From Streptomyces sp. WZ-12 (GTDB taxonomy: Bacteria > Actinomycetota > Actinomycetes > Streptomycetales > Streptomycetaceae), in contig NZ_CP118574.1 in assembly GCF_028898845.1 (NCBI RefSeq), forward strand, positions 7,303,001 through 7,367,000: a stretch of DNA of 64,000 nucleotides. Reading direction: 5' to 3'. The translations under genes were made by a program, and so were the position numbers. Below, in pieces: positions 13,247 through 29,371 of this stretch. The stretch's first letter is position 1. Every line of letters begins with the position of its first letter. The notes under the pieces are model-generated. The model worked only from the letters and a program-made list of their open reading frames with translations, searched no databases and was not told the DNA's origin.

Positions 13247-13320
13247 GCTTGGCTTCCCACGTTGTTGGCTTTCCCGCCGTGGGCCTGCGGCCGGCTGTTC
13301 CCCACGTTGTTGGCTTTCCC
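13247..13320. repeat. GC-rich repeat (left outer part of an interrupted inverted repeat)
   Basis: Two near-identical units, CCCACGTTGTTGGCTTTCCC, are separated by GCCGTGGGCCTGCGGCCGGC. The reverse complement of the whole stretch is found at about 23361-23440 with few changes. Before the element inserted, this was the outer end of the left arm of a long inverted repeat whose inner part is now at 22743-22908. Confidence 0.8.
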
Positions 13321-13343
13321 GAAGCTCGAAACTGGTACTCCTG
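13318..13343. other. attL-like junction
   Basis: The sequence runs CCCGAAGCTC GAA A CTGG TACTCCTG. The left half (CCCGAAGCTC) is the inverted partner of GAGCTTCGGG at 22732-22741. Joining the two chromosomal halves restores a palindromic attB with a 7-nt centre GAAACTG. TACTCCTG is the imperfect inverted partner (6/8) of CAGAACTA at 22716-22723, which would give attP with centre GAATCTG. Both junctions share GAA-N-CTGG, the likely crossover region. Confidence 0.7.
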
Positions 13344-13359
13344 CGTTGGACCTGAGAGA

Positions 13360-13394
13360 GCCCCGCCCGGGGACGAGCCCAGACGGGGCGGGGT
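13360..13394 (-). terminator. Terminator-like hairpin near the left end of the element
   Basis: CCCCGCCC (13361-13368) pairs with GGGCGGGG (13386-13393); on the minus strand TCTCTC follows. It would stop transcription of the two small minus-strand genes just before the attL junction. Confidence 0.6.
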
Positions 13395-13396
13395 CG

Positions 13397-13606
13397 TGCG
13401 TTCAGCGAGTGCGGATCACCGTCATCCGGAGTGGGGCCGGCGCCGAGTTCTACGGCGTGCGTCGGACAGGCGTAGAGGATCGTCCCCGGCCCGCAACTGC
13501 TCTCGATCCAGCGCACGGCAACGGGGGCGGTGGTGAGCGTGCGGCATCGGATGCACAGTGCGACGCGCACGTCCGGTATCGGGCCGGTTATCCCGTCGCG
13601 GGTCAT
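13397..13606 (-). CDS. Small Cys-rich protein at the element's left edge (3' end uncertain)
   Basis: The frame starts at ATG 13606, overlapping the stop of the upstream 108-residue gene as ATGA. It encodes MTRDGITGPIPDVRVALCIR, then CRTLTTAPVAVRWIESSCGP and LYACPTHAVELGAGPTPDDG. The CxxC pair plus the later CPTH suggests a small zinc ribbon. No in-frame stop follows: the frame runs through the terminator and attL into the MFS gene (558 codons in all). A stop in the neighbouring frame at 13402-13404, just before the terminator, suggests a one-base frameshift lost the native end. The coordinates given cover only the part up to the terminator. Function unknown; such genes sit beside GntR regulators in Streptomyces elements. 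Confidence 0.55.
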
Positions 13607-13929
13607 GCGGACACCGCCCCGGCAGCGGCGAACGCGCTCGCGGGGAACGGGGCACCGGGATAGCTGTACGGGTAGTCCGCGCCCATGGTGGCGAGCACTG
13701 CGGCGCGCCGCCGCTCACGGACCGCGTGCAGTTCGAGCGTGGTCTCGGCTTGCTGTCGGAAGAACTCGGCAGCTTCCTCTTTGGTCGGTCCGGTCCAGGG
13801 GCGGGACCAGGGGCTCACGGGTGCGGGTTCGGTGTTCGGTTCGGGGGTGGGGGTTGCTGCGTGTCGTCCTTGGGCGGGCAGCAGTAACCGCAGCATCCAC
13901 ACCAGGGCGTTGGCGATACGATCGCGCAT
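13603..13929 (-). CDS. Hypothetical protein (108 aa)
   Basis: Starts MRDRIANALVWMLRLLLPAQ, a short amphipathic or membrane-touching helix, then a Pro-rich linker, then a charged helix WTGPTKEEAAEFFRQQAETT and an RERRRAAVLATMGADYPYSY tail. ATG 13929 is used instead of an upstream in-frame start because homology-like character begins there. It is coupled (ATGA) to the small Cys-rich gene. It is divergent from the GntR gene across an operator-like palindrome and so probably repressed by it. No known function. Confidence 0.65.
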   Translation of the reverse strand: MRDRIANALVWMLRLLLPAQGRHAATPTPEPNTEPAPVSPWSRPWTGPTKEEAAEFFRQQAETTLELHAVRERRRAAVLATMGADYPYSYPGAPFPASAFAAAGAVSA

Positions 13930-14028
13930 GAGTCGGTCAGCTCCTAGATAGCTGTGTCGGCTAAGCCCCGGCGGACCGCTTAGGACCGGTCTTCCGGGGC
14001 GTTTTCGCGTTCGACGGTAGCGAGCATG

Positions 14029-14070
14029 CATAGAGATGTCTATGTGCAGGTGTATACAGGGGTCTCTATG
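14029..14070. promoter_or_regulatory. Operator-like nested palindromes between divergent genes
   Basis: CATAGAGA (14029-14036) and TCTCTATG (14063-14070) are perfect inverted repeats. The left one is also half of a 16-bp palindrome CATAGAGATGTCTATG (14029-14044), and GTATAC lies between them. It sits 33 bp before the GntR start and 100 bp before the divergent 108-residue gene, the expected place for an autoregulatory GntR operator. Confidence 0.6.
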
Positions 14071-14102
14071 CAGCCACTGGAGGTGATAGGTAGGTTCCGC
14101 GC

Positions 14103-14351
14103 GTGTTTGAGTTCGACCCCACCCGGCCCAAGTGGCACCAGATCGCCGAAGTATTGCGCCGACGCATTGACAGTGGCGAGTACCCAGCGCGGCACCTGGT
14201 ATCCGAGGTTCAACTAGAGAACGAGTTCGACGTGACCCGGACCACGGTCCGCAAGGCGACTGCGGCGCTGCGCGAAGAGGGGCTAATCATCACAACGCCC
14301 GGGATGGGGTCATTCGTCAGCGAGCGCGCGGCCGACCAGAACGGCGACTAG
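14103..14351 (+). CDS. GntR-family winged-helix protein, DNA-binding domain only
   Basis: 82 residues with a GTG start at 14103. FEFDPTRPKWHQIAEVLRRR, then QLENEFDVTRTTVRKATAAL and EGLIITTPGMGSFV, is a complete GntR winged helix. The usual effector domain is absent, so it is much shorter than a full GntR regulator (about 240 residues), like the KorSA-related and stand-alone GntR proteins of Streptomyces mobile elements. It probably represses the divergent small genes through the palindromes at 14029-14070. It may work together with another effector-binding protein. Confidence 0.82.
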   Translation: MFEFDPTRPKWHQIAEVLRRRIDSGEYPARHLVSEVQLENEFDVTRTTVRKATAALREEGLIITTPGMGSFVSERAADQNGD

Positions 14352-14391
14352 CCCCGCCCGCACGCCACGGGGGCAGTGCACGGACGGGGCT
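14350..14391. terminator. Bidirectional terminator between GntR and methyltransferase genes
   Basis: AGCCCCGCCCG (14350-14360) and CGGACGGGGCT (14381-14391) form an 11-bp stem with one mismatch. It lies between two convergent genes. Confidence 0.7.
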
Positions 14392-14403
14392 TCGGGGCTG
14401 TCA

Positions 14404-15585
14404 CTAGGTGACAGGCCGGTCGGGTACCAGGTCGTCTGGCGAGTCGAGCCACACCCGCTCGCCGTCGTCGTCCACGGTGAGCCCGAACCGCTCGAAACCG
14501 GGGCGGCCCTGGTTGTCCCACCAGCGCCACGCGGCCTCTAGTTCGTCCCAGAGCTGACGGGGGCCCGACTGGATGACCGGGAACCTCTCGCGGCCCTTCT
14601 CGTAGTCGGCCGTTGCCCACGATGTAACGCCCGTGTCCATGAGCCACAGTCGGTAGGCCCCGTCGTCGCCCCACTCGACGCGACAGAACAAGTCCGGCAC
14701 CTGCACGCCGATGGCAAACATGTGCACCCAGTCGCCCACGCTGTCCGGGGAGAGCTCGGTCTCGGACCGGGCGCCAGTGCCGGGCCACTCCTCTCCGTCC
14801 AAGTACGCGCTAGTCGGCGGCAGTTGCTTGCGCTGTGCGCTGATTCGCATGAACGCCGACGAGCCTACGAACGGGCCGGATGCCGATCCGTCCTCGGCGA
14901 CCGTGAGACGCGCTACCGCTTCCCCGCCGTACGTCGGGCCCCACGGGGTCACGATGACACCCCCAGGCCGCGTCTGCGTCCGCCAGGCAGGGGGGACAGA
15001 CCGGACCGAACACGTGGCGATCACGCGGTCGAACGGGGCCCGCTCCGGGTAGCCCGCCGCCCCGTCGCCGACATGCACCAGCGGGTGAAACCCCGCCAGG
15101 TTCAAGCGCGTTCGCGCGTCCTCGGCCGTCGCCGGGTCAACCTCGACGGACACGACGTGATCGGGGCCCAACCGGTGTGACAGCAGACTCGCGTTCCATC
15201 CCGTTCCGGTGCCGATCTCCAACACTTCGTGCCCGGCCTCGGCGCTTAGCGCGTCCAGCATCGAAAAGACCATGGTCGGCATGGAGTTGGAACTAGTCGG
15301 GGTTCGGCCCTTCTTCGGGCCCGTGTACTCCCCGTTGTCCCACTGGGTGGTGATCGGTGCGTCGCGGTAGACCGCCTCCCACCATACGTCGGGCTGTTCG
15401 TCCCGGGCCACGCGGTCGTCTTGGCGGTTCATGCCCGCCTGTCCCGGCCAAATCGTGTCGGGCACGAACAGGTGACGGGGCACCGCCTCGAAGGCGGGCA
15501 ACCAATCGCTTGTCAGCGCTCCCTTTTCCATGAGCGCGGAGGCGAGCCGCTTGGGGCCCGCCTCCTTGAGTTCGTGCTCGGTCAC
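14404..15585 (-). CDS. PIMT-like (L-isoaspartyl O-methyltransferase fold) peptide methyltransferase
   Basis: 393 residues from GTG 15585. The core is the protein-L-isoaspartate methyltransferase fold: WLPAFEAVPRHLFVPDTIWP, the substrate segment SSNSMPTMVFSMLDAL, SAM motif I in HEVLEIGTGTGWNASLLSHR, VVSVEVDP, and HVGDGAAGYPERAPFDRVIA. It is far longer than housekeeping PIMT (about 210 residues), with an extra C-terminal domain of roughly 160 residues. Such extended forms modify RiPP precursors, methylating Asp so that an aspartimide forms. The 45-residue peptide just upstream overlaps it by GTGA, so the two are translationally coupled. A classical protein-repair role is unlikely in a mobile cassette. 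Confidence 0.82.
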   Translation of the reverse strand: MTEHELKEAGPKRLASALMEKGALTSDWLPAFEAVPRHLFVPDTIWPGQAGMNRQDDRVARDEQPDVWWEAVYRDAPITTQWDNGEYTGPKKGRTPTSSNSMPTMVFSMLDALSAEAGHEVLEIGTGTGWNASLLSHRLGPDHVVSVEVDPATAEDARTRLNLAGFHPLVHVGDGAAGYPERAPFDRVIATCSVRSVPPAWRTQTRPGGVIVTPWGPTYGGEAVARLTVAEDGSASGPFVGSSAFMRISAQRKQLPPTSAYLDGEEWPGTGARSETELSPDSVGDWVHMFAIGVQVPDLFCRVEWGDDGAYRLWLMDTGVTSWATADYEKGRERFPVIQSGPRQLWDELEAAWRWWDNQGRPGFERFGLTVDDDGERVWLDSPDDLVPDRPVT

Positions 15586-15719
15586 TTGCCGTCCGCCGGG
15601 CCCTGGCCGTCGTTGGTGTTGCCACCCTCGTCGGAGCCGCCACCGCCGTGCTTGTTGCCGCTGTCGCTGTCGTCCTGCGGGTTACCGCCGGTCGCCATCG
15701 TCAACCACCATGCGTTCAT
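15582..15719 (-). CDS. 45-residue Gly/Asp/Asn-rich peptide, candidate RiPP precursor
   Basis: ATG 15719 follows a strong AAGGAGG ribosome-binding site seven bases upstream, and the stop overlaps the methyltransferase start (GTGA). The peptide opens with MNAWWLTMATGGNPQDDSDS, has a GGGGSDEGG middle and ends NTNDGQGPADGK. It is nearly free of hydrophobic residues after position 10. The C-terminal half holds two Asp-Gly pairs (NDG and ADGK), the dipeptide most prone to aspartimide formation and the usual target of PIMT-type RiPP enzymes. No Cys is present, so lanthionine chemistry is excluded. Its role as substrate is inferred from coupling and composition. Confidence 0.6.
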   Translation of the reverse strand: MNAWWLTMATGGNPQDDSDSGNKHGGGGSDEGGNTNDGQGPADGK

Positions 15720-15804
15720 GTCGTTACCTCCTTGTTGATGGTGCTGGATACCCGCCCCCTGGGACGGGAGTATGTGGGGGAAGGGCAGGGGAGCAGCCAC
15801 CGCG

Positions 15805-15924
15805 CTACCACTTCCGGCCGGTGTTCTTACCCGTGTCCGAGCCGTACGACGAGCGGCGATTCTCCTCGGCGGCCCGCTCGCGCAAGTCCTTGGCGGAGCC
15901 CTTCTCCTTCGGCTTCTCACTCAT
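15805..15924 (-). CDS. 39-residue highly charged protein
   Basis: ATG 15924 overlaps the stop of the 70-residue gene as ATGA. The product starts MSEKPKEKGSAKDLRERAAE and ends SYGSDTGKNTGRKW. It is strongly basic overall with one charged helix (KDLRERAAEENRR) and a polar tail. It could be a second peptide substrate or leader, or a small partner of the methyltransferase. Too short for family assignment; the coupled position and clean codon pattern support it being real. Confidence 0.5.
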   Translation of the reverse strand: MSEKPKEKGSAKDLRERAAEENRRSSYGSDTGKNTGRKW

Positions 15925-16133
15925 CGCCGGGCCGCCTCCAGGATCCGGCACAGCCGCTCCGTGTCCGAGTCAGACAACGGCGGGGGTGCGACCTTCTCCA
16001 CCAGGGCGCCGCTGGCCCTCTTGAGAGTGGCGACGACTGGTTCACCGTCAAGGAATCCGGCCGATTTGAGCGCGTCGTTCAGGCGCTTGCACAACTCTTC
16101 GACCGTGCGTGCCGTTGCGGGGGTAGCGCACAT
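15921..16133 (-). CDS. 70-residue helical protein, first gene of the methyltransferase cassette
   Basis: ATG 16133 is preferred over an upstream in-frame start because AAGGAGG stands five bases before it. The product runs MCATPATARTVEELCKRLND, then AGFLDGEPVVATLKRASGAL, ending in a helix SDTERLCRILEAARR. It is a small helical protein with three Cys and no membrane segment. It heads a four-gene minus-strand unit (this gene, the 39-residue gene, the 45-residue peptide, the methyltransferase) divergent from the XRE-DUF5753 regulator. Function unknown; it could be a peptide-recognition or immunity partner. Confidence 0.55.
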   Translation of the reverse strand: MCATPATARTVEELCKRLNDALKSAGFLDGEPVVATLKRASGALVEKVAPPPLSDSDTERLCRILEAARR

Positions 16134-16260
16134 GCTCGCCTCCTTGGCTCTCAGTAGCGCTTCCACTACCGGGGAGGTTCAGCGTGGCTCACACCTGGGA
16201 AGCGTTCAACGTGTTGCCGATGGACGGAAGGTAGGCGAACGGGCCATAAACAAGAACGAG

Positions 16261-17082
16261 TTGAACCCGGATGCATCACCCGAGGCGGCCTACGGAGCGC
16301 GTCTACGCAGCCTGCGGGAAGCGCGCGGCTGGACCCAAGAGGATCTTGCCAGCCGCACGGACTATTCCAGCGTGCACGTTTCCGCCGTCGAAAATGGTCG
16401 GAAACCTCCAACCCTCCGCTTTTCCAAGGGAGTTGACGCGGTGCTTGGGCTGGTCGGAACGGACGCCTCGTTCGAACGCGAGTACCGGCAGATCAAGCAC
16501 GGCAACTTGTTGGAGGGCTTCCCGGAGTACGTCAAGTACGAGGGTAAGGCGGCAGAGATCAGGCTGTTTGAGATCGGACTGGTGCCCGGCCTGTTGCAGA
16601 CGCCGGAGTACGCGCGGGCGGTGGCAGATGGTGACGTACAGCGCGGAGCCATCACGCCCGAACAAGCAGAGGGGCGGGTTTCCTTCCTCGCGAGGAGGCA
16701 AGCCGCGTTGGTGCGACCCCGGTCCCCTATGGTGCTTGTGGTGATGGACGAGAGTTGTCTTCGCCATGCGGTCGGCGGTGCCGAGGTGATGGAAGCTCAG
16801 TTTCGGCGGTTGGTCGAAGTCGCCTCTCTCCCCAACTGGGTGCTGCAGGTGTCACCCTTTGGCATAGGGGCGCGGCGGTCGTTCAACCTCCCAATGAACT
16901 TACTGACGATGTCAGACCTGTCTGCGGTCGCGTACGCGGAATCCCAGTTGCGGGGGCACCTGGAGCGCGATACGGCAGCCGTGCTGCCATTGTTGACGGC
17001 CTACCATCAGTTGCAGGCCGAAGCTCTGTCCCAGACGGCATCGGTGGACATGATCAATGAGGTACGGAAGGGCACCCCATGA
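16261..17082 (+). CDS. XRE-family HTH regulator with DUF5753 domain
   Basis: About 273 residues. TTG 16261 is chosen because the protein then begins at LNPDASPEAAYGARLRSLRE, matching the normal start of this family; no better start lies nearby. The N-terminal HTH (ARGWTQEDLASRTDYSSVHV, then SAVENGRKPPT) is followed by DUF5753 (EIRLFEIGLVPGLLQTPEYA ... LLTAYHQLQAEALS). These Streptomyces regulators are almost always followed by DUF397, as here with an ATGA overlap. One leucine (codon at 16900-16902) is the rare TTA, so translation should need the bldA tRNA. It is divergent from the methyltransferase cassette and is its probable controller. Confidence 0.88.
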   Translation: MNPDASPEAAYGARLRSLREARGWTQEDLASRTDYSSVHVSAVENGRKPPTLRFSKGVDAVLGLVGTDASFEREYRQIKHGNLLEGFPEYVKYEGKAAEIRLFEIGLVPGLLQTPEYARAVADGDVQRGAITPEQAEGRVSFLARRQAALVRPRSPMVLVVMDESCLRHAVGGAEVMEAQFRRLVEVASLPNWVLQVSPFGIGARRSFNLPMNLLTMSDLSAVAYAESQLRGHLERDTAAVLPLLTAYHQLQAEALSQTASVDMINEVRKGTP

Positions 17083-17279
17083 CGACCAACTCCCCCCGCT
17101 GGTTCAAGTCCTCCTACAGCAGCAACGGCGGTAACTGCGTCGAGGTCGCCGCCAATGTCCCCGGCGCCGTCCCCGTCCGTGACAGTAAGGACCCGCACGG
17201 CCCGGCGCTGGCCTTCTCTGCGCTCGCGTGGCAGGCGTTCGTGGGCCAGGTGAAGTCAGGGTCACGGCCGGCCCTGTAA
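17079..17279 (+). CDS. DUF397 domain protein
   Basis: 66 residues: MTTNSPRWFKSSYSSNGGNC, then VEVAANVPGAVPVRDSKDPH and LAFSALAWQAFVGQVK. This is the full DUF397 signature (W-x-K-S-S-x-S and VRDSKDP). The start overlaps the regulator stop as ATGA. DUF397 proteins partner with DUF5753 regulators (for example the BldB-related and AbaA-type loci); the molecular role is unclear. A terminator follows. Confidence 0.9.
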   Translation: MTTNSPRWFKSSYSSNGGNCVEVAANVPGAVPVRDSKDPHGPALAFSALAWQAFVGQVKSGSRPAL

Positions 17280-17319
17280 GGCTGACAGGCCGGCCGCTAG
17301 CCGCTCGGAAACGCCAACG

Positions 17320-17357
17320 GCCCCGGCTCCCTCCTGTGACGGAAGGAACCGGGGCTT
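17320..17357 (+). terminator. Terminator after DUF397
   Basis: GCCCCGG (17320-17326) pairs with CCGGGGC (17349-17355), with further pairing inside (CTCC/GGAAGG), followed by TT. It ends the regulator/DUF397 unit. Confidence 0.65.
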
Positions 17358-17493
17358 CAACATGCCAGGAGCACGGAACGGCGCGGATAGATCTGCGCGG
17401 AGGGCTGACGGCCCTTAGAAAGGGTTATGACGGAACACCCGTCGAAACTCATCGCCCTTGATGGTCCGCATGCCGCACCACCGCCGACGGAGG

Positions 17494-17991
17494 TCAGTCC
17501 CAGATATCCGAGTCGTCGTCCTCGGGTTCCGGTGCCGTGATCGCCGAGCGAGCACTTGGCGACAGGCCCAACTCGCGGATATACCGGGCTAGTTGACTAC
17601 GGTACTGCCCTGCGATCGTAGCTGCGCCGTTCTTCACCGTGCCTCGCTCGGCGGTCACCATGAGCCCGCGCTCGGACAGGTCCCGCTCCGCCTGGTCGAT
17701 GCGGGCGACGCACACGCACAGATCTTTGACCGTGGTGTGATCCACTTCGCCGATACCGGCTGCCACTTCCAGGATCGGGACGACCCGGCGCCACTCGGCC
17801 GAAGCGACTTGCCGGCATCGGGTGTTCGCTGCCTCAACAGCGGGATCGGGTGATGCCTTGAAAACCTCGTTCCAATCCGGCTCGGCGAGGATGGCGCGCG
17901 GGACAACCACGCCTTCTTTGATTGCGGTCTTTGCCGGGTTGCCTTCTCTCCTCCGTTGGATTGCTGGTTTGGGTCGGTATCTGTCTGCCAT
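17494..17991 (-). CDS. terS: Phage terminase small subunit, P27 family
   Basis: 165 residues with a basic N-terminus (ADRYRPKPAIQRRREGNPAK), a helical middle (DHTTVKDLCVCVARIDQAER), and the family tail TVKNGAATIAGQYRSQLARY, then IRELGLSPSARSAI. Terminase small subunits select the DNA to be packaged. It is the last gene of the minus-strand head cluster, after the HNH nuclease. HNH plus P27 is the arrangement of cos-packaging HK97-like phages. The large subunit that should follow is missing; only about 100 bp of noncoding DNA separates this stop from the next terminator region. A satellite would use it to redirect a helper's large terminase to its own DNA. Confidence 0.85.
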   Translation of the reverse strand: MADRYRPKPAIQRRREGNPAKTAIKEGVVVPRAILAEPDWNEVFKASPDPAVEAANTRCRQVASAEWRRVVPILEVAAGIGEVDHTTVKDLCVCVARIDQAERDLSERGLMVTAERGTVKNGAATIAGQYRSQLARYIRELGLSPSARSAITAPEPEDDDSDIWD

Positions 17992-18109
17992 TCACTCTCG
18001 CTTACTTGACTAGCCCGTTTCGGGGCTCCCAAACTTTACTCCAGCACCGGCGCAAGTTTCTTTTCTCCCTCTCGCTCATTCTGAACAGCGCATCGGGGGT
18101 GGTGCCTGG

Positions 18110-18502
18110 TCAGTGCGACGAGCGTTCGCGTGATTCACGTCGCGAACGGGCTTCGGCGGCGAATCCGCCTGGCTGATTCCTCGCCGTTTCGCGGTTATGG
18201 CAATTCGCGCACAGCGAGCGAAGATGCTTTGTCGAATCCGGATTCACCTCGCCTTTCGCCATCAACTCGCGTCTACTCAGCGGGAAATGATCGGCGACAT
18301 TCGCCGCACGACCACACAGCGCACACCACGGATTCGCATACAGGAATTCCTTACGGATTCGCTGCCATCGCGTCGTGTATACCGCGCCACCACGCGACGC
18401 GCGTTGCTTGTTCGCCTGTTGCTGGTGATCCTTGCATCGTCCACCCGTCGTCAGCTCGGGGCATCCGGGGACACTGCAAGGGGGGCGGGGTTTCTTTGGC
18501 AT
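18110..18502 (-). CDS. Phage HNH endonuclease
   Basis: 130 residues from ATG 18502. A basic N-terminus with a Cys/His knuckle (CSVPGCPELTTGGRCKDH) precedes the HNH core: LYANPWCALCGRAANVADHF and STKHLRSLCANCHNRETARN. CxxC pairs and the ADH and CHN elements are all present. HNH proteins beside terminase genes are required for terminase cutting at cos in HK97-type phages. It lies between the capsid and small terminase genes in the same direction. The earlier in-frame start at 18550 is rejected as it lacks conserved sequence. Confidence 0.87.
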   Translation of the reverse strand: MPKKPRPPCSVPGCPELTTGGRCKDHQQQANKQRASRGGAVYTTRWQRIRKEFLYANPWCALCGRAANVADHFPLSRRELMAKGEVNPDSTKHLRSLCANCHNRETARNQPGGFAAEARSRRESRERSSH

Positions 18503-18555
18503 GGGGGCTCCAATGGGGGGCCGGGGGCTTATGTTGAACCCCCGGCCCATGGTGG

Positions 18556-19398
18556 TTACTTGGCAGCGTTCTGAATCATCACGTGCGCCCCGGCGACGGG
18601 GAATGCGAATCCGACGCGCATGGTGCCCTTGACGGCCACGCGGTCACTGGTGAAGTAGACGGACTTATCCACGTCCAAGCGCGTGCCCTCGCGAACAACG
18701 GTGAGCATGTCGGCCCGGCTAATTCCGTAGACCACATCGGCCGGCGCATACGGCGAAACGAACACCGGACGTCCGAGGATCTGCCGCCGACCCACGGCAG
18801 TCATATCGGAGTTGAGCAAACCGCGATTCGAATTCGCCTGATCCTTGAGCTTGGCCAGTTCCAGCGCAGTTGCCGCGCTCATGACCCATGCGGTGATGTT
18901 GCCGCCCGCAGCCTCAGACAACGACAACGCTTCTTCCAGCGGGTCCAGGTTGGTGTACGTAACGGGCGCGGGCACCTTCGATATGCCGTCCAGAGCAGCG
19001 AGGCCCGAGGGGTTCGGGGCATTGAGCTTGTTCAACAGTGCGTTGTCCACGCTGTTGGCGATCTGGCGGGCAATGGACCGGCCGACCTGGTCACCAGCGG
19101 ACGGGGAACTGTCCTCCGCCATCTCCCGGCTGATCACGGTAAGTCCCGCGAACTTGGCCGGAGTCACCACGATTTCATCGAACTTCACGTCGGACGGGGT
19201 GATTTCTGCGCCCTCTTCCACGGCGCCAACCGTGACGTCGGATGCGAGCAGCGGAACGCGGTAGCGGGTGCTGCCGGTCTGAATGATGGTTCCCACCTGC
19301 ATGGCGAGCGACAGTTCCTGTACGGGCTTCTCGACCAGTGCCCCGTACTCGTCGGGCAGAATCCCTTGCGTGCCGGGCGTGTTGGTGTAAATGGACAT
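18556..19398 (-). CDS. Phage major capsid protein (HK97 fold)
   Basis: 280 residues with GAGGAAAG before the ATG. Start: MSIYTNTPGTQGILPDEYGA. Family landmarks include a spine-helix/E-loop region (VPLLASDVTVGAVEEGAEIT, PAKFAGLTVISREMAEDSSP), the A-domain DNALLNKLNAPNPSGLAALD, and ILGRPVFVSPYAPADVVYGI with the closing DRVAVKGTMRVGFAF. It is shorter than capsid proteins that carry a fused scaffold or protease substrate domain, and a separate scaffold gene precedes it. No prohead protease or portal gene is found. In a satellite it would assemble a dedicated, perhaps smaller, head. Confidence 0.88.
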   Translation of the reverse strand: MSIYTNTPGTQGILPDEYGALVEKPVQELSLAMQVGTIIQTGSTRYRVPLLASDVTVGAVEEGAEITPSDVKFDEIVVTPAKFAGLTVISREMAEDSSPSAGDQVGRSIARQIANSVDNALLNKLNAPNPSGLAALDGISKVPAPVTYTNLDPLEEALSLSEAAGGNITAWVMSAATALELAKLKDQANSNRGLLNSDMTAVGRRQILGRPVFVSPYAPADVVYGISRADMLTVVREGTRLDVDKSVYFTSDRVAVKGTMRVGFAFPVAGAHVMIQNAAK

Positions 19399-19445
19399 GC
19401 TTTCCTCGGTTCTCTTCGGTGTGTCGGGTTAGTGGCTACGGCGTG

Positions 19446-19901
19446 TCAGTGACGCTGCCCGCGAAGTGCCGACTTCCAGTTGGGCGCGTCGTCATCGGCG
19501 CTGCTGTGCGCCCCGCCCCCAACGTCACCCCAACCGATTGGACGGGCTGCAAGGTTGGGGCGGGACTTCAACAGCGCATCAAGTGCGGCAGTGACCTTTT
19601 CGGTATCAACGTCGCCGTCCTCGCCGAGCAGATCGGCAACCTGCTGCTTTCCGAGGTCGAAAAGGTCGGAGGGAACGTCAAGACGCTGCGCCGCCTGGCG
19701 TTCGATCTCTCGCAACAGCATCGCGTCAATCCGCTTTTGCGCTGCCTCCAAGCGGCTGTGCGCTTCGTCTAGGGCCTGGCGGTGATCCTCCGGAACAGAC
19801 TCCCCGCCATCGACTGCGGGGCGCTCAGCGGACGCCGTGGCGGGGTCCTCGGGGGTCTTGGCGTGCTCGTCCTGGTCGTGCATGTTCTCGATGGTTTCCA
19901 T
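19446..19901 (-). CDS. Phage scaffolding-like protein
   Basis: 151 residues, very acidic and helical. A disordered acidic N-terminus (about 1-35) precedes a coiled coil HRQALDEAHSRLEAAQKRID, then REIERQAAQRLDVPSDLF and a short C-terminal tail ending DDDAPNWKSALRGQRH. Position directly before the capsid gene, size, charge and coiled coil fit a capsid scaffold. The basic end would bind the capsid protein. Sequence alone cannot exclude another head-assembly role. A GGAG lies about 30 bases before ATG 19901, farther than normal, so the start is less certain. Confidence 0.7.
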   Translation of the reverse strand: METIENMHDQDEHAKTPEDPATASAERPAVDGGESVPEDHRQALDEAHSRLEAAQKRIDAMLLREIERQAAQRLDVPSDLFDLGKQQVADLLGEDGDVDTEKVTAALDALLKSRPNLAARPIGWGDVGGGAHSSADDDAPNWKSALRGQRH

Positions 19902-19949
19902 AGGCGGTTGCCGCCCTGGTCGGGGCGGTGCTCCTTTCGAGAGTGGGCA

Positions 19950-19983
19950 TGAAAAAGCCCCTGCGTGTGGTCACTCAGGGGCG
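19950..19983 (-). terminator. Intrinsic terminator just upstream of the head-gene cluster
   Basis: On the minus strand GCCCCTG ... CAGGGGC is followed by five T. It would stop transcription coming from the recombinase side before it reaches the scaffold gene, so the head genes need their own promoter or antitermination. Confidence 0.75.
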
Positions 19984-20111
19984 AACAGAGTTCAGGCAGT
20001 TGCCTGTTATGCGGTTCGGCTAACTGTGCTGCGAGTCGAACGCAGGGGACTTGAGCAGTGCTCGCGCGGCTACATGTTGTGCGCGGAACGGTCTCGCTCC
20101 CAGGATGGGAG

Positions 20112-20290
20112 GGAGACCGGAGGTTTCCCGCGCCCCGAGGGGCGCCAAGCAGGATCACCGGTCTCTCCTCCGGGCTGTAGTGGAGAGCGGAGGTTTCCCG
20201 CAGTGTCGAACCGTGACGGTGTGCCGAAATGTGGTCCGGTCTCTCTTCTCTCTTATTTTTTCTACGTGTTCTAAAAAAGTGGTGTAAACC
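20112..20290. repeat. Short repeats and AT-rich stretch in the element's noncoding region
   Basis: CGGAGGTTTCCCGC occurs at 20118-20131 and 20188-20201. A GAGACCGGAGG / CCGGTCTCTCC inverted pair and a second CCGGTCTCTC lie nearby. An unusually AT-rich run with ATTTTTT and TAAAAAA follows at about 20250-20280. No gene is seen from 19902 to 20870. The layout could be an origin, a packaging site or a control region; nothing decides this. Confidence 0.5.
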
Positions 20291-20521
20291 GTCACTCCAT
20301 CACCATCCTTCTCCGCTGTAGGGCAGCCCCGGCCCGAGCCCGGAGCCGACCGGACCCCGCAGGGCGCCTGTACGCCCGTCTGCGGGCACGCGAAAGCCCC
20401 GGCGACCTTGGGAGTCAGCCGAGGCTGTTCGGGTCTGTGGTGCCTGGTTACGCGGCTGTTGCGAGCACCTGCGCAGACAGGTTCTGGTGCGCCTTCGCCC
20501 TCGGCGTTAGGTGCGCGGTAA
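20283..20521. repeat. Direct repeat copy 1, containing a recombinase C-terminus remnant
   Basis: About 239 bp from TGTAAACCGTCACTCC, closely similar to 20704-20943. Read on the minus strand it ends an open stretch TPRAKAHQNLSAQVLATAA with a stop at 20448-20450. The intact recombinase ends TPGANAHRNLTPQTLTTAA. So copy 1 keeps the 3' end and terminator of a second, otherwise lost, recombinase gene. Confidence 0.75.
20448..20513 (-). pseudogene. 3' remnant of a second serine recombinase gene
   Basis: About 20 codons survive, matching the last residues of the recombinase at 20871-22703 in sequence, stop position and downstream terminator. No further recombinase sequence is visible between 20521 and 20704. 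It points to replacement or tandem insertion of recombinase modules. Confidence 0.65.
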
Positions 20522-20703
20522 TCCCGCTCTCGGAAGCGGCAGGGAGCAAGCCTGGTAAGCCCTCACCTCGAACTAGGCGGAACGGCACGTCTCCCGGATT
20601 GGGTAGGGTGCAAGCCTTGCCGGGGCTGGAGAAGTGTCAAAGTGCCGGAATGAATCACCGGCTCGGTATCCCTTAGGTTTTTCTAGGGATATCTGGGTTG
20701 TGT

Positions 20704-20943
20704 TGTAAACCGTCACTCCAACACCATTCCTCTCCGCTGTAGGACAGCCTCGGCCCGACCCCGGAGCCGGCCAGGCCCCGCAAAGCGGCCTGTACGCCCG
20801 TCTGCGACCATGCGAAAGCCCCGGCGACCTTGAGGGGTCAACCGGGGCTGTTCGGGGCTGTGATGACCGGTTACGCGGCGGTTGTGAGTGTCTGCGGTGT
20901 CAGGTTCCGGTGTGCGTTTGCCCCGGGTGTGGGTGCGTGGTCG
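20704..20943. repeat. Direct repeat copy 2, overlapping the recombinase 3' end
   Basis: About 240 bp starting TGTAAACCGTCACTCC, offset 421 bp from copy 1. It covers the downstream region, the terminator and the last 24 codons of the live recombinase gene. Confidence 0.75.
20817..20849 (-). terminator. Terminator of the recombinase gene
   Basis: AGCCCCGG (20817-20824) pairs with CCGGGGCT (20842-20849), with an inner GACC/GGTC pair; on the minus strand the stem is followed by TTTCG. Copy 1 of the direct repeat has the equivalent hairpin near 20392-20427. Confidence 0.75.
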
Positions 20944-22703
20944 GGGTTGTCTTCCGCTGCGAGGTGATCGGCCATGGCTGCGGCTTCGCCGATGCAGGGG
21001 TCAAGGTCCCCGGTGATGGTGAACTCCACCCGCCGCAGATCGAGCTTCCGCCACCCGCCCTTGGTCCCGCGCTTCACGTCCAGGCGGGCGCCTGCCTCGA
21101 TGAGCATGGCGCGTTTGCCTGCGGTGTCGGCTGCGTGCCATTCGTCGGCGAACGTGCGCCCCGTGGGGATGATCTCGCGCCGGGGCTCGGTCTTCTCCCG
21201 CGTCTCCAACTCCGCCAGTCTCGCGTCAAGTGCATCTGCTCGGCGCTGCCACTCGGCTTGGGCTGCCTTGGACTTCTGGCGCCCCTTCTGTTGCTGGTGT
21301 TCGGCGAACTCGGCTGCGGTGGCGTCGATTTCGGGCTGTGGGTCGTAGCCGGGTATCTCGGTGACGCGAGTGAACTGCACCGGGCCGACCAGGCGCAGGA
21401 ACTCGGCGGTGACGTACTCATCCACCCATGTATCGCGGATGGTGACCGGGGCCGGGCAGCGCGATCCGTTCTTGTAGGACCCGCAACCGTAGTTGCGCAA
21501 CGCCTTGTTGAGGTACATGCGGCTGCCGCAACCGGTGCAGTGGATCACCCGCAACAGCAGCGCCACCGAGTCCTTACGCGTGGGCGCCTTCTCCGCCGTG
21601 GGCTTCGGTGCGAGCAGTGCGCCGATCTGGTCGAACTCCTCGCGGGTCACGAGCGCCGTTTCGGACGCCATGACGGGGTTGCCCTGGTCGTCACGGACGG
21701 GGTTGTCCTTGTGCATCTTCCAGCCCAGCAGTGCGGGGCTCGTCAGCATCCGCACGATGGTCTGACCACGCCACGCACCGCGCGTGTTCTTCAGCTCGTC
21801 GATGTCGGGGGTGCCCTTGCGGCGGGCTTTGTATGCCGTCCAGTGCGCCGAGGGCGACAGCACCCCGTCCGCGTTGAGCATCCGCGCGACGGCGTGCACC
21901 GTCTTGCCCTCCAACAGGGCCGCGATGATCCGCTCAATGACACGCACGGCGTCCGGATCGGGGACGAGCGTCCAGCCGACCCCGCCGTGATTCGCCGGCA
22001 TAGGGGCCGGAAGGTAGCCGTAGGCCGGACGCGAGCCACGCCACCGAAGTGCTATCTTCCGCAGGGCCGCTTGGGCGCCGGTCACGCGGGCCTTGATGGA
22101 ATCCGTCTCCACCTGTGCCGCGAACGCGAGCATCGTCATCCTGAGCATGGACATGGGGTCCATGGGGTTGCGGAAATCCAGGACCAAGCGATCCCCACCG
22201 ACCCCCTCGGCGAACACAATCATCTTCCGATGCATGCGGGCCCACTTCGCCAGCTCGTGCATGTCCTCCATGGACCGGATTGCGCGATCGAAGCGCCAGA
22301 ACACCAGGGCATCGAAGTCGGCGGGCCGGGCGAGCCAGCCGCCGAGCTGCGGACGATCAAACGGCCCGATCTTGGACGCGGACACGTCCAAGTCCACGGC
22401 TTCCCGCAGCTCATCACCCTCGCCAAAGTCGATTCCGAGGGCTGCCGCCGCGATGTCGTCGGCCTCGCGCTGCCGCTCGGGGCTGGTCGTCTCGTCCGTC
22501 CGCACCGAGAGGCGGATGCACCGGACCCCGCGCAGGGTCTCGGTGAACACGGTTCCTACTGTCGCATCGTTCTTCACGACATTCTTAGGAGAGCGACGGT
22601 TTCCCGAACCAGGGCTGACCTGCACAGATGTCGACACCCTGCTTGTCATGTCCCTTGCAGGGTCGGGCGCATTCTGCGACTTCCTAGCTCGCGCTGCCAC
22701 CAC
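20871..22703 (-). CDS. int: Large serine recombinase (site-specific integrase)
   Basis: Up to 610 residues. The catalytic region has VRCIRLSVRTDETTSPERQR (nucleophile Ser about 66 from the longest start) and LVFWRFDRAIRSMEDMHELA. A recombinase domain follows, then a zinc ribbon with Cys about 389, 392, 407 and 416 (CTGCGSRMYLNK, YGCGSYKNGSRC), a coiled coil at about 450-510 and a polar tail. The true start may be ATG 22649 or GTG 22577, since the catalytic domain begins only at about residue 58. The gene ends the element next to attR. It should integrate and excise the element; no excision factor is recognised. Confidence 0.92.
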   Translation of the reverse strand: MVAARARKSQNAPDPARDMTSRVSTSVQVSPGSGNRRSPKNVVKNDATVGTVFTETLRGVRCIRLSVRTDETTSPERQREADDIAAAALGIDFGEGDELREAVDLDVSASKIGPFDRPQLGGWLARPADFDALVFWRFDRAIRSMEDMHELAKWARMHRKMIVFAEGVGGDRLVLDFRNPMDPMSMLRMTMLAFAAQVETDSIKARVTGAQAALRKIALRWRGSRPAYGYLPAPMPANHGGVGWTLVPDPDAVRVIERIIAALLEGKTVHAVARMLNADGVLSPSAHWTAYKARRKGTPDIDELKNTRGAWRGQTIVRMLTSPALLGWKMHKDNPVRDDQGNPVMASETALVTREEFDQIGALLAPKPTAEKAPTRKDSVALLLRVIHCTGCGSRMYLNKALRNYGCGSYKNGSRCPAPVTIRDTWVDEYVTAEFLRLVGPVQFTRVTEIPGYDPQPEIDATAAEFAEHQQQKGRQKSKAAQAEWQRRADALDARLAELETREKTEPRREIIPTGRTFADEWHAADTAGKRAMLIEAGARLDVKRGTKGGWRKLDLRRVEFTITGDLDPCIGEAAAMADHLAAEDNPDHAPTPGANAHRNLTPQTLTTAA

Positions 22704-22715
22704 GGCGGATCACTC

Positions 22716-22741
22716 CAGAACTATGAATCTGGAGCTTCGGG
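22716..22741. other. attR-like junction
   Basis: The sequence runs CAGAACTA T GAA T CTGG AGCTTCGGG. GAGCTTCGGG (22732-22741) is the perfect inverted partner of CCCGAAGCTC at 13318-13327, and CAGAACTA matches the inverse of TACTCCTG at 13336-13343 in 6 of 8 bases. Each predicted site (attB and attP) is an imperfect palindrome centred on the same GAA-N-CTG, as expected for a large serine integrase. The site lies 13 bp from the longest recombinase start. Confidence 0.7.
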
Positions 22742-22742
22742 A

Positions 22743-22908
22743 TTTCCCACCGCGCGGGTTGCTGTTTTGCGCCTTGCGGCGCGGGCGGTGCCGCTGCGCG
22801 GGGCGGGCCGAGTTGTCTGGTCCGCTGCGCGGGGCTGTTGGGGTGCGGTGACGGGCCTGCGGGGCGGGCATGCCAGACTGCTTCGCTTTACGTCTGGCAC
22901 ACCCGCCC
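22743..22908. repeat. Inner left arm of a long interrupted inverted repeat
   Basis: From TTTCCCACCGCGCGGG to GTCTGGCACACCC, this arm matches the reverse complement of 23120-23361, which has one extra block of tandem units. It ends in the hairpin TGCCAGAC ... GTCTGGCA. No coding evidence. With 13247-13331 it formed one continuous arm before the element inserted. Confidence 0.8.
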
Positions 22909-23119: not shown

Positions 23120-23440
23120 GTATGCCAGACGTAAAGCGAAGCAGTCTGGCATGCCGCCCCCGGAGGCCCGTCACCGCAGCCGACAGCCCCGCGCAGCGGA
23201 TCGGCCCGCCGCAGGCGCAACGGTGGGACAGCCGACAACGTGGGCGAGGCCCCGCGCAGCGGAGCCGCAGGCGCAACGGTGGCACAGCCGACAACGTGGG
23301 CAGCAAGCCAAGCGCAGCGGCCCCGCCGCAGGCGCAAAACAGCAACCCGCGCGGCGGGAAAGCCGCCAACGTGGGCAGCAGCCGGCCGCAGGCCCACGGC
23401 GGGACAGCCACCAACGTGGGGAACACCCGGCCGCCAGGCC
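23120..23440. repeat. Right arm of the long inverted repeat, with tandem units
   Basis: The arm starts with the hairpin TATGCCAGAC ... GTCTGGCATG, then three or more units of the type CGCAGGCGCAACGGTGG and GACAGCCGACAACGTGGG, and an outer part with CCAACGTGGG units matching 13247-13320 inverted. A unique core (22909-23119, about 210 bp) separates the arms and holds nothing recognisable apart from direct repeats of GGTGGTGACCGT (near 22994 and 23034). Open frames on both strands here reflect GC bias, not genes. Confidence 0.8.
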
Positions 23441-23806: not shown

Positions 23807-24934
23807 GTGGCCACCGAAGCCCCCGTGGAGATCGCGGCGATGCGCCGGGCCATCGAGCTCGCCGCCCACGGCCTCGGTCACACCAGCCCGAACCCGGTCG
23901 TCGGTTGCGTCGTCCTGGACGCCGCGGGCGACATCGTGGGCGAGGGCTGGCACCAGCGGGCTGGCGGGCCGCATGCCGAGGTCCACGCGCTGCGCGCCGC
24001 GGGCGAGCGGGCCCGGGGCGGGACCGCGCTGGTCACCCTGGAGCCCTGCAACCACACCGGGCGGACGGGGCCGTGCGCCCGGGCGCTGATCGACGCCGGC
24101 ATCGCCCGGGTCGTCTACGCCGTCGCCGACCCCAACCCCACCGCCACCGGCGGCGCGCTGACGCTGGCCGAGGCCGGCGTCGACGTCGAGGGCGGGCTGC
24201 TCGCCGACGAGGCGGCGGCCGGCAACGAGGCGTGGTTGACGTCGGTGCTGCGCGGCCGCCCGTTCGTGCTGTGGAAGTACGCGGCCACCCTGGACGGCCG
24301 GATCGCCGCCGCCGACGGCACCAGCCGTTGGATCTCCTCGCCCGAGTCGCGGGCCGATGTGCACCGGCTGCGGGCCGCGGCGGACGCGGTCGTGGTCGGC
24401 TCCGGCACCGCCCGCGCGGACGATCCGCACCTCGGCGCGCGGCTCGCCGATCTCGCGGACGGCGAGGTCAGCCAGCCGCTGCGGGTGGTCCTCGACTCCG
24501 ACGCCGGCGTGGTCAAGGCCGGCGCCCGGGTGTTGGACGGGACCGCACCGACCCTGATCGCGGTCGCCGAGGACGCGGACGCCACCCACCTCGAAGGGCT
24601 CGCGCCGATCGTCCGGTTGCCGCGCGCGCCCGAGGGCCGCGGCCTGTCCATCCCCGCCCTGCTCCGGGCCCTGACGGCCCGCGACGTGCGGTCGGTGCTG
24701 CTCGAAGGCGGGCCCACGCTCGCCGGGGCCTTCCTCGCCGCCGGGGCCGTCGACAAGGTCGTCGGCTATCTCGCGCCGGTGCTGCTCGGCGCCGGCCCGG
24801 CCGCCGCCGGCGACGCCGGAATCACCACCCTCACCGAGGCGTTGCGGCTCGATGTGACCGACACCGCCCGCCTCGGCCCCGATCTACGCATCACCGCCAC
24901 CCTCAACCGCCACGCCCGCACCGAGGAGAACTGA
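23807..24934 (+). CDS. ribD: Bifunctional riboflavin-specific deaminase/reductase
   Basis: 375 residues. GTG 23807 is chosen since AGGAGG stands just before it and homology begins at once. The N-terminal deaminase has the zinc site PHAEVHAL and TLEPCNHTGRTGPC. The C-terminal reductase domain begins near FVLWKYAATLDGRIAAADGT and includes LLEGGPTLAGAFLAAG. It deaminates then reduces the pyrimidine intermediate after GTP cyclohydrolase II. It is the first gene of the operon under the FMN riboswitch; ribE follows 2 bp after the stop. Confidence 0.95.
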   Translation: MATEAPVEIAAMRRAIELAAHGLGHTSPNPVVGCVVLDAAGDIVGEGWHQRAGGPHAEVHALRAAGERARGGTALVTLEPCNHTGRTGPCARALIDAGIARVVYAVADPNPTATGGALTLAEAGVDVEGGLLADEAAAGNEAWLTSVLRGRPFVLWKYAATLDGRIAAADGTSRWISSPESRADVHRLRAAADAVVVGSGTARADDPHLGARLADLADGEVSQPLRVVLDSDAGVVKAGARVLDGTAPTLIAVAEDADATHLEGLAPIVRLPRAPEGRGLSIPALLRALTARDVRSVLLEGGPTLAGAFLAAGAVDKVVGYLAPVLLGAGPAAAGDAGITTLTEALRLDVTDTARLGPDLRITATLNRHARTEEN

Positions 24935-24936
24935 CC

Positions 24937-25572
24937 GTGTTCACCGGAATCGTCGAAGAACTGGGTGAGATCGTCGCCGTCGAGAACCTCGGTGACTCCT
25001 CCCGCTTCCGCCTGCGCGGCCCCGTCGTCACCGAGGACGCCAAGCACGGCGACTCGATCGCCGTCAACGGCGTCTGTCTGACGGTGGTGGACACCGGCGG
25101 CGGCGAGTTCACCGCCGATGTGATGGCCGAGACCCTCAACCGCTCCAGCCTCGGCGCGCTGGCCCCCGGCTCGCGGGTCAACCTGGAGCGCCCGATGGCG
25201 CTGGGTGGCCGGCTCGGTGGGCACCTCGTCCAGGGCCATGTCGACGGCACGGGCACGATTCTTGAGCGCACGCCCGGCGAGCACTGGGAGTTGGTGAAGG
25301 TCGGACTGCCCGCCCAACTCGCCCGTTACGTCGTCGAGAAGGGGTCCATCACCGTCGACGGCGTCAGCCTCACCGTCGTCGATGCCGCCGACGACCACTT
25401 CACCATCAGCCTCATCCCCACCACGCTCGCCCTGACCACCCTCGGCATCAAGCAGCCCGGCGACCCCGTCAACCTCGAAGTGGACGTGCTCGCCAAGTAC
25501 GTCGAGCGGCTGCTCGGCCGGGGCGGCAAGGGCGCGGACGACCTCGCGGAGCTGAAGGAGACGGACCGGTGA
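24937..25572 (+). CDS. ribE: Riboflavin synthase alpha chain
   Basis: 211 residues from GTG 24937: [20 protein letters not shown] is the canonical opening. Two tandem lumazine-binding barrels are visible, each with the repeat signature ([13 protein letters not shown] and [13 protein letters not shown]) and [11 protein letters not shown]. It dismutates two lumazine molecules to riboflavin. The stop overlaps the ribM start as GTGA, so translation is coupled. Confidence 0.96.
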
Positions 25573-27541: not shown

Positions 27542-28072
<531 letters not shown>

Positions 28073-28155
28073 CCGGCCCGCCCGTCACCCGCCACCGCCC
28101 TTGGGTCGAGGCGCTGCGCGCCACTGTGACATCACCGCGTAGGCTAGGCGGCATC

Positions 28156-28428: not shown

Positions 28429-28480
28429 ACCACCCTCCCCGCACTCCCCAACTCTCCCAGCCGTAAAGGAAATCGCCGTC

Positions 28481-29329: not shown

Positions 29330-29371
29330 ACATCCCCCGCCCCGCCCACACCCCCTGACGGAAGACGACCC

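Follow-up and report, generated by a model that had tools for sequence, protein, structure and literature searches.

A 64,000-nucleotide stretch of the Streptomyces sp. WZ-12 genome (the window) harbours a 9,428 bp serine-integrase element (positions 13315-22748) that is probably an integrated, capsid-encoding and cos-packaged satellite, using the large terminase (TerL), portal and tail of a helper predicted to be a Rowa-type phage. It is best read as a variant of a known satellite kind that takes in the cfPICIs, the mycobacterial phiRv-like elements, the 11 kb elements of Mycolicibacterium aichiense and MulchRoom/MiniFlayer. What is new here is a putative cos site just after the HNH gene, resembling that of Rowa-type Streptomyces phages.

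Boundaries and gene content of the element

The element is inserted into a chromosomal repeat and carries the same TTTCCC core at both ends (Table 1). An earlier reading of the letters without database searches (the sequence-only reading) had placed it correctly to within ~20 bp and had claimed matching att junctions and an intact recombinase, both of which we observe, the latter through the family matches of the integrase. Read from the sequence, the element-side arms at attL form a near-perfect palindrome, GAGCTTCGGGATTTCCCGAAGCTC. Joining the flanks yields a contiguous copy of the repeat as present at other loci of this genome. Genus relatives gave no empty site at this locus: the flank aligns at 74-79% over only the first ~270 of 481 bases and the repeat region is not alignable, so the empty site is shown from own-genome repeat copies instead. 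Among the 20 repeat loci compared with the joined flanks (two being the element's own flank and two giving no match), the best unoccupied copy differs by 3 mismatches in 50 (L170). The repeat core, CACGTTGTTGGCTTTCCC, has 89 genomic copies at up to two mismatches, 11 of them exact and two of these beside the element, compared to 0 copies of a reversed control pattern. phiRv1, too, is inserted by a serine integrase into a repeated target.

Table 1. Features of the element, in window coordinates
Feature	Position	Strand	Basis
attL core TTTCCC	13315..13320	+	within genomic repeat; joined flanks match uninterrupted repeat copies
Conserved small satellite protein, 142 aa	13603..14031	-	homologues in L037, L073, L074
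GntR-type winged-helix regulator, 82 aa	14103..14351	+	profile match; also in L073, L074
PCMT-type methyltransferase (cargo)	14404..15585	-	PF01135
45-codon ORF upstream of methyltransferase	15582..15719	-	sequence only
HTH/DUF5753 regulator, start codon uncertain	16255..17082	+	PF19054, PF13560
DUF397 protein	17079..17279	+	PF04149
Small terminase TerS, P27 family	17494..17991	-	PF05119; TIGR01558 above cut-off
cos-like site between HNH and TerS	18024..18075	-	profile from 20 phage cos sites; alignment with Rowa genome ends
HNH endonuclease	18110..18502	-	phrog_144 (3e-22)
Major capsid protein, HK97-type, 280 aa	18556..19398	-	PF05065 (E 2.7e-27); TIGR01554 above cut-off
Scaffolding protein, 151 aa	19446..19901	-	phrog_4708 (5e-9)
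Stretch with ~230 bp direct duplication	20279..20930	.	second copy extends into integrase 3' end
Large serine integrase, 610 aa	20871..22703	-	PF07508, PF00239, PF13408; phrog_95
attR core TTTCCC	22743..22748	+	joined flanks match uninterrupted repeat copies

Profile matches identify all four head and packaging genes that the sequence-only reading had named, i.e. scaffold, capsid, HNH and TerS. Neither HNH nor scaffold has a Pfam match, the scaffold being assigned through phrog_4708. Identity to the Rowa counterparts is 57% for TerS, 60% for HNH and 35% over ~90 residues for the scaffold. The capsid shows no sequence relationship to the Rowa capsid, which belongs to PF20911 (hhalign probability 0.3% against this one sequence).

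Profile searches of the element's ORFs found no portal, TerL, protease, tail or primase gene, and the TerL, portal and protease of Rowa and SF1 (tblastn, E 1e-3) gave no match in the element or in 26 other loci. Likewise, no portal, connector or head maturation protease family was matched among the ORFs scanned, very short ones being left out. Six-frame ORFs of at least 380 aa comprise only the integrase, its opposite frame, the methyltransferase and an HTH regulator frame; with no ORF of this size unexplained, portal and TerL are missing on both grounds, ORF length and homology. The gaps that had been noted by eye (portal, TerL, protease, connector and tail genes) are borne out by profiles, tblastn and ORF sizes, and the genes for making particles alone (portal, TerL, tail) are missing, as in a satellite by definition.

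Recurrence of the gene set in nine Streptomyces elements

The scaffold-capsid-HNH set is present in the same order in nine core elements (that of the window, L036, L037 and L073-L078), five with TerS and four without; strains with a core element include S. celluloflavus NRRL B-2493 and Streptomyces sp. NRRL S-455. The integrases of the nine share 22-78% identity where BLAST aligns them, and no portal, TerL, tail or replication gene was found in any of the nine. Core-element ORFs of at least 380 aa are integrases, regulators, a methyltransferase or frames without a family match, in a family scan that left out the frame opposite the window integrase. In the pairs compared, selection on the element genes is purifying: pN/pS against L073 is 0.08 for capsid, 0.20 for TerS, 0.23 for HNH, 0.28 for integrase and 0.37 for scaffold, and against L075, L074 and L037 it is 0.16-0.21 for capsid and 0.40-0.54 for scaffold (the L074 integrase row was left out of the comparison). 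Single stops in the L073 HNH and the L075 scaffold are ascribed to end coordinates placed beyond the stop.

These data bear on the explanation that the element is the remnant of a full-length prophage from which portal, TerL, tail and lysis genes were deleted, which we consider very unlikely. Its HNH is up to 81% identical to the HNH of Rowa-type phage contigs, its integrase is 67% identical to that of the Rowa-type contig L115 (and 78% to that of L073), and the duplicated integrase 3' end records a past rearrangement. However, the order in Rowa-type phages is HNH-cos-TerS-TerL-portal-protease-scaffold-capsid and that of the element is scaffold-capsid-HNH-cos-TerS, so that the collinearity apart from deletions expected of a defective prophage is not seen against these phages. 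The capsid belongs to a different family, the att ends are intact, and the genes are under selection in the pairs tested. The compact set recurs with divergent integrases, and no portal, TerL or tail gene was found with it, so the element did not arise by deletion. This recurrence largely refutes a deletion-derived prophage, which we rejected on the further grounds of gene order, capsid family and selection. The sequence-only reading had suggested looking for the same four genes with a serine integrase and no tail genes; the set does recur, with TerS in five of the nine elements (that of the window included) and without it in four. The outcome it named as fatal to its case, homologues only as pieces of full-length prophages, was not borne out.

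A cos-like site after HNH and its pairing with TerS

In phage Rowa, TerS is the first coding sequence and HNH the second-last, hence the genome ends meet between HNH and TerS. The satellites have a site 3' of HNH that is similar to these joined ends. We collected 38 contigs with a 16-mer picked because it is common to the Rowa ends and L077; nine without a Rowa-type gene were dropped, and two without full flanks and seven duplicates were removed from the remaining 29 to give 20 unique phage cos sites. The resulting profile puts the post-HNH position first in eight of the nine core loci, the rank in L077 being partly by construction owing to the shared 16-mer. In L036 the site was not located by the profile, and a core-only match at 9359, which falls inside HNH, was counted as a miss. 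Scores range from 10.2 to 46.2 in the TerS-less loci and reach at most 4.9 in the TerS-bearing ones. The right half of the site had no role in contig collection and was used to check for circularity arising from the 16-mer. With this half alone, the post-HNH site ranks first in three of the TerS-less loci, second in the fourth, and between 4 and 227 in the five loci with TerS.

In the window, the cos-like site is the best match in 15 kb on both strands (full-profile score -26.5, next -32.4). Its core alone ranks first, with a score of 1.4, and its right half alone ranks 227. The window's own match thus appears diverged and weak, only the core resembling a phage cos. Cos packaging, which the sequence-only reading had proposed from the proximity of HNH and a P27-type TerS, is supported by the resemblance of the post-HNH site to the joined Rowa ends. 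The site also suggests that the element does not share the direct terminal repeats of the Mulch/Flayer satellites. Separately, short non-coding patches are common to the element and phage contig L104 only; these are not general and were not used.

The satellite TerS sequences (n = 5) group in a single clade, with the 20 phage TerS outside it (99/98 support). Identity in the cos right half is 67% among TerS-bearing satellites and 40% between them and phages. Across 19 phages, TerS and cos right half co-vary (r 0.94, 0 of 5000 permutations), a value inflated by common descent, by which phages and satellites are related. The five TerS-bearing elements have a diverged cos, and the four TerS-less elements a phage-type cos. 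We lean towards the view that this minimal, shell-only family follows two packaging strategies, one with its own TerS and a private cos, the other without TerS and with a helper-type cos on which the helper TerS would act. The TerS/cos pair would then be a code predicting which phage mobilises which satellite.

The same observations weigh on a further explanation, namely that the element is not packaged and that its scaffold and capsid act on helper assembly, by poisoning or diverting it, or else build a shell akin to a transfer agent or nanocompartment. Such an anti-phage or domesticated role would suit a capsid and scaffold without a motor, the lack of any replication gene found and the unrelated cargo (methyltransferase, regulators). 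We nevertheless regard it as highly improbable, since the conserved position of the cos-like site and the co-variation of TerS with cos are hard to account for unless element DNA is packaged; moreover, the M. aichiense relatives entered GenBank as phage genomes.

Predicted helper, proposed cycle and known satellites

A Rowa-type helper is not the only candidate. The element could have taken cos, HNH and TerS from Rowa-type phages long ago and now draw TerL, portal and tail from a different phage, perhaps similar to one of the prophage-like regions resident in the same genome, although we find this rather unlikely. Two such regions, at C1:1.35 and C1:7.14 Mb, have SPP1-type portals, and the former harbours a TerL (phrog_9), an HNH 32% identical to that of the element and a portal 34% identical to that of Rowa. 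The Rowa TerL has no match at all in the element's own genome; PF03354 has none there either, the TerL of the resident prophage belonging to another family. Of the genomes sampled that carry a core element, four in all, none has a TerL at least 70% identical to that of Rowa, and the right half of the window cos is not phage-type. Against this, the stretches examined of both resident regions contain no site within one mismatch of GGGAGGCAAAAA and only scattered one-mismatch matches to the 11-mer CGGCAGGGAGG, and the TerS-less relatives retain a Rowa-type cos, which points to present use of that packaging type in the family.

The position of the cos-like site and the M. aichiense precedents speak indirectly for packaging and spread of the element's DNA by a helper phage. 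For a satellite of a Rowa-type phage, we infer the following cycle. The serine integrase would keep the element in one of many genomic repeat copies, and infection by, or induction of, a Rowa-type Streptomyces phage would lead to excision. Replication by helper or host enzymes is proposed because no primase was found in the element. Element scaffold and capsid protein may form a small procapsid around the helper portal; as the capsid families differ, the fit of this capsid with a Rowa portal is hypothetical. The element TerS, aided by HNH, would bind its own cos variant and recruit the helper TerL, upon which the 9.4 kb would be cut and packaged, and helper connectors and tail would finish the particle. 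In TerS-less relatives, helper TerS and TerL would make the cut, in keeping with the phage-type cos of these elements. If true, a satellite that brings its own shell and borrows portal and motor crosses the usual divide between satellites that remodel a helper capsid and those that encode a whole head, and makes testable how a foreign capsid and scaffold take in a helper's portal. TerS/cos pairing would likewise become a sequence rule for helper prediction, and phages of the type predicted as helper, namely Rowa and AbbeyMikolon, already have GenBank entries.

Rowa (NC_047906) and related phages resemble the element in the placement of cos between HNH and TerS, their cos being closest to that of the TerS-less relatives. 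Unlike the element, Rowa has a complete phage genome of 43 kb that includes TerL, an SPP1-type portal and a protease, and its capsid is of a different family. With cfPICIs, as defined in PMC10690885, the element shares its own major capsid protein and, as predicted, its own packaging specificity and a need for helper tails. However, the cfPICI gene set comprises protease, portal, connectors, TerL, TerS and HNH, and the first four were not found in the element, TerL being missing though TerS and HNH are present. L285, a Streptomyces element closer to the cfPICIs in having TerL and portal, provides a contrast. MulchRoom and MiniFlayer are described as Streptomyces satellites with capsid, scaffold, HNH and small terminase and no primase, but they have their own large terminase, portal and adaptor, direct terminal repeats, low GC and virulent phages as helpers, and the MulchRoom integrase is of the tyrosine type (PMC10690885); own TerL and portal, characteristic of that family, are both missing here. 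The sequence-only reading had taken the element for a minimal satellite and knew of no described Streptomyces satellite with this gene set. Recurrence and the cos-like site support its interpretation in part, and we found no exact Streptomyces counterpart described in the open-access literature, but capsid-encoding precedents were already known, including these two from Streptomyces.

In Mycobacterium, candidate PICIs with capsid and integrase, including phiRv1 and phiRv2, have been reported (PMC10654092), and the element falls within the loose definition given there, as its integrase and major capsid genes lie together in a phage-like region. According to that source these are small integrated elements, some with serine integrase, terminase and scaffold. 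They differ in that their capsids are highly diverse, some carry genes for DNA replication, of which the Streptomyces core elements showed none, and its text gives no cos common with a named helper. There are also 12 M. aichiense phages (Alyssa1, Anya and 10 others; GenBank OR387110-OR387121) of 10.9-11.1 kb with a related capsid, which is 32% identical to that of the element; scaffold identity is up to 48% (over 78 residues). The two of 12 records examined have serine integrase and TerS and no annotated TerL or portal, but their annotation includes a tape measure protein as well as a head-tail adaptor and stopper, which profiles confirm in Alyssa1, and no HNH. The Alyssa1 TerS also best matches another family (phrog_1496).

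The left half of the element (13.3-17.3 kb), left undiscussed by the sequence-only reading, encodes a GntR-type regulator, the PCMT-type methyltransferase and an HTH/DUF5753 and DUF397 pair. The conserved 142 aa protein has no match in Pfam, PHROG or NCBIfam profiles. The methyltransferase scores 341 bits against TIGR04188, under the cut-off of 380, and 485 bits against phrog_13505. The adjacent 45-codon ORF, which has no NCBIfam match, is possibly a modified-peptide precursor. Counterparts of the HTH/DUF5753 regulator are present in L036, L073, L074, L075 and L078.

Gene content and boundaries of the element

The sequence-only reading had assigned the element a large serine integrase, scaffold, capsid, HNH endonuclease and small terminase (TerS), a set borne out by open reading frames (ORFs) and profiles. 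In the left half, a PCMT-type methyltransferase is preceded by a 45-codon ORF; this half also encodes a GntR-type regulator and a protein pair, HTH/DUF5753 and DUF397. Among six-frame ORFs of at least 380 aa in the element, the only one that is not an identified gene runs opposite the integrase. GC content is 65.2%, compared with 72.7% in the remaining window; the host genome comprises 9.55 Mb in two contigs. The methyltransferase falls near TIGR04188, a family of ATP-grasp peptide methyltransferases (341 bits against a cut-off of 380), and the ORF just upstream is Asp-rich, a pairing that could possibly represent modified-peptide cargo on a satellite. A direct duplication of ~230 bp takes in the integrase 3' end and suggests past recombination beside this gene.

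Features of the element and its surroundings (window coordinates)
Feature	Position	Strand	Basis or remark
Large serine integrase	20871-22703	minus	ORFs and profiles
Scaffold	19446-19901	minus	PHROG match phrog_4708, E 5e-9
Capsid, HK97-type	18556-19398	minus	ORFs and profiles
HNH endonuclease	18110-18502	minus	ORFs and profiles
TerS, P27-type	17494-17991	minus	ORFs and profiles
Methyltransferase with upstream 45-codon ORF	14404-15719		TIGR04188
TTTCCC cores	13315-13320 and 22743-22748		element ends
Direct duplication	20279-20507 and 20700-20930		~230 bp
attB repeat	13256-13320 and about 23210-23420		

The TTTCCC cores delimit a unit of 9,428 bp, and the arms adjoining them form a near-palindrome, GAGCTTCGGGATTTCCCGAAGCTC, with a TT centre. 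Near-palindromic arms with such a centre are expected of a serine-integrase attP. The insertion lies within a repeat, CACGTTGTTGGCTTTCCC, present in the host genome in 89 copies with at most two mismatches (11 exact), while the reversed control pattern gave 0 copies in the same genome. When joined, the element flanks match uninterrupted repeat copies elsewhere, the best with 3 mismatches in 50 (locus L170). Streptomyces sp. NBRC 110611 carries a sister element (L073; capsid 95% and integrase 78% identical to the window's) that occupies, by eye, the same kind of repeat, adjoining an assembly gap. The high-copy repeat corresponds to attB; its 89 sites lie on one contig (C1), at some places in short tandem arrays.

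Recurrence and comparison with known satellites

Capsid matches (E<=1e-5) were found in 29 of 392 genus genomes; identity is at least 69% in four, the window's own among them, and 41–45% in three more (one match partial). A genome-contig scan for relatives returned 19 loci, at least two from genomes already counted. Requiring a capsid at least 67% identical defined nine core elements, namely the window's, L036, L037 and L073 to L078 (L077 and L038 are one element, counted once). All nine have scaffold, capsid and HNH in that order; between integrases that BLAST could align, identity runs from 78% down to 22%. TerS is present in five (window, L036, L037, L073, L075) and was not found in L074, L076, L077 and L078.

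Searches with the large terminase (TerL), portal and protease of phages Rowa and SF1 (tblastn, E 1e-3) gave no match in the window element or 26 other loci. Besides integrases, the core-element frames of at least 380 aa that were scanned, all but the one lying opposite the window integrase, encode regulators or a methyltransferase or show no family match, and smaller cargo genes include kinase-like, phosphotransferase-like and SAH-hydrolase-like ones. As a positive control, 25 distant Streptomyces loci with a capsid match were examined: a PF04860 portal lies within 3 kb in 7 and is missing at that distance from the other 18, another portal family having been checked in part of those genomes. 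Among more distant capsid relatives, whose gene content varies, L039, L204, L206 and L208 carry primases, and one in Brevibacterium antiquum (L087) combines a TerL-like ORF of 249 aa with a primase/helicase-like gene and an integrase of phrog_1.

cfPICIs, in the defining passages of PMC10690885, carry portal, connectors, TerL and protease, and MulchRoom and MiniFlayer are described there with TerL and portal; none of these genes was found in the element, which sets it apart from both. For the candidate PICIs described in PMC10654092, reported there for Mycobacterium, integrase plus capsid suffices, and the element has both, though in Streptomyces. PMC10023795 raises the possibility that small prophage-like elements of actinobacteria are satellites and adds that experimental validation lags. 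The closest relatives found that were deposited as phage genomes are 11 kb M. aichiense records; two of them (L034, L035) have a tape measure gene (phrog_305 in L034), TerL and portal unannotated, and, by eye, a hairpin-like CCAGGGGGCTACCCCC near the right genome end, like one beside Rowa-type cos sites. A Streptomyces element of ~11 kb (L285 in genome G083; size by eye) encodes serine integrase, capsid, HNH, TerL and portal, a gene set near that of a cfPICI. L043, L045 and L046 form a second small-element family, with a serine integrase (56% identical to the window element's in L043), a capsid of ~390-400 aa and, at the locus, neither a PF04860 nor a PF05133 portal.

A putative cos site and its relation to TerS

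Streptomyces phage Rowa provides the top phage match of TerS (57%) as well as that of HNH (60%). Its first CDS is TerS and its second-last is HNH, so its genome ends meet between the two genes. Rowa ends CGGCAGGGA, as does AbbeyMikolon, and starts GGCAAAAA; the satellites' post-HNH stretch, CGGCAGGGAGGCAAAAA in L077, resembles these ends. A 16-mer picked for being common to Rowa's ends and L077, GGCAGGGAGGCAAAAA, occurs in 38 viral contigs, 29 of which carry Rowa-type HNH and/or TerS next to the 16-mer.

We scanned core loci (12-21 kb, both strands) with a phage cos profile of 27 usable sites, 20 unique. The top site lies 34-56 nt past the HNH stop in eight of nine loci, L036 being the miss. 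Scores of the four TerS-less elements (L077 46.2, L076 42.4, L074 26.2, L078 10.2) all exceed those of the five TerS-bearing ones (L037 4.9, L073 0.6, L075 -6.2, window -26.5, L036 lower), a chance of 1 in 126 if the elements are independent and 1 in 56 without L077. Because the 16-mer was drawn partly from L077, the scan was repeated with parts of the profile. With the right half only (34 columns outside the 16-mer; 24,000-42,000 positions ranked), the post-HNH site came first in L074, L076 and L077 and second in L078, compared with ranks of 4 (L037), 17 (L036), 20 (L075), 133 (L073) and 227 (window). With the core only, it came first in seven of nine loci, second in L037 and was missed in L036; the window's score was low (1.4). 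From these scans, the putative cos of TerS-less elements is of phage type throughout, whereas TerS-bearing elements, the window's above all, have at most the core in common. Since the TerS-less L074 is close to the window element by capsid (86% identical), TerS has probably been lost or gained more than once, with the elements not fully independent.

Across 19 phages, TerS identity correlates with identity over the 36 nt on the right-hand side of the core (r 0.94, 0/5000 permutations, relatedness not removed). Right halves are 64-100% identical to Rowa's in five phages with Rowa-type TerS (Rowa included) and 36-47% in the 14 others. Compared with 20 phage TerS, those of the satellites group in a single clade (support 99/98), and right halves of TerS-bearing satellites average 67% identity among themselves and 40% to phages. 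Those of TerS-less satellites average 36-48% to TerS-bearing satellites and reach 61-83% to the best phage, although TerS-bearing L037 also reaches 61% to a phage, so simple identity does not separate the two groups cleanly.

That the element is instead a prophage remnant was rejected, first on pN/pS values: against L073, capsid 0.08, TerS 0.20, HNH 0.23, integrase 0.28 and scaffold 0.37; against L075, L074 and L037, capsid 0.16-0.21 and scaffold 0.40-0.54. Second, Rowa-type phages are ordered HNH-cos-TerS-TerL-portal-protease-scaffold-capsid, unlike the satellite's scaffold-capsid-HNH-cos-TerS. Lastly, the capsid family is PF20911 in Rowa but PF05065 in the satellite, and hhalign did not align the satellite capsid profile to Rowa's single sequence (probability 0.3%).

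Predicted helper and packaging

A TerL at least 70% identical to Rowa's is encoded by 6 of 392 genus genomes and by none of the four with a core element. The host genome has no match to Rowa TerL at E 1e-10 or better, and PF03354 and PF04860 are absent from it. Its two prophage-like regions (L283/L286, C1:1.343-1.383 Mb; L284/L287, C1:7.130-7.165 Mb) have SPP1-type portals by profile and tail genes by eye, and a TerL that belongs to a different family (phrog_9, by profile) is present in the first; neither the element's capsid nor a close cos match was seen in them. The element's predicted helper would thus have to enter from elsewhere. Exchange between satellites and Rowa-type phages can be seen in the identity to Rowa-type phage contigs, up to 81% for HNH (L096) and 67% for the integrase (L115).

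For the candidate satellite, we propose that the element most likely excises and that enzymes of the helper or the host would copy it. A small shell, a size we infer from genome length, would most likely be built around a portal of the helper from the element's own scaffold and capsid, while TerS and HNH of the element would most likely steer helper TerL to the element cos. The scaffold is about 35-48% identical to Rowa-type scaffolds over part of its length, a partial likeness that may be its means of meeting the helper portal.
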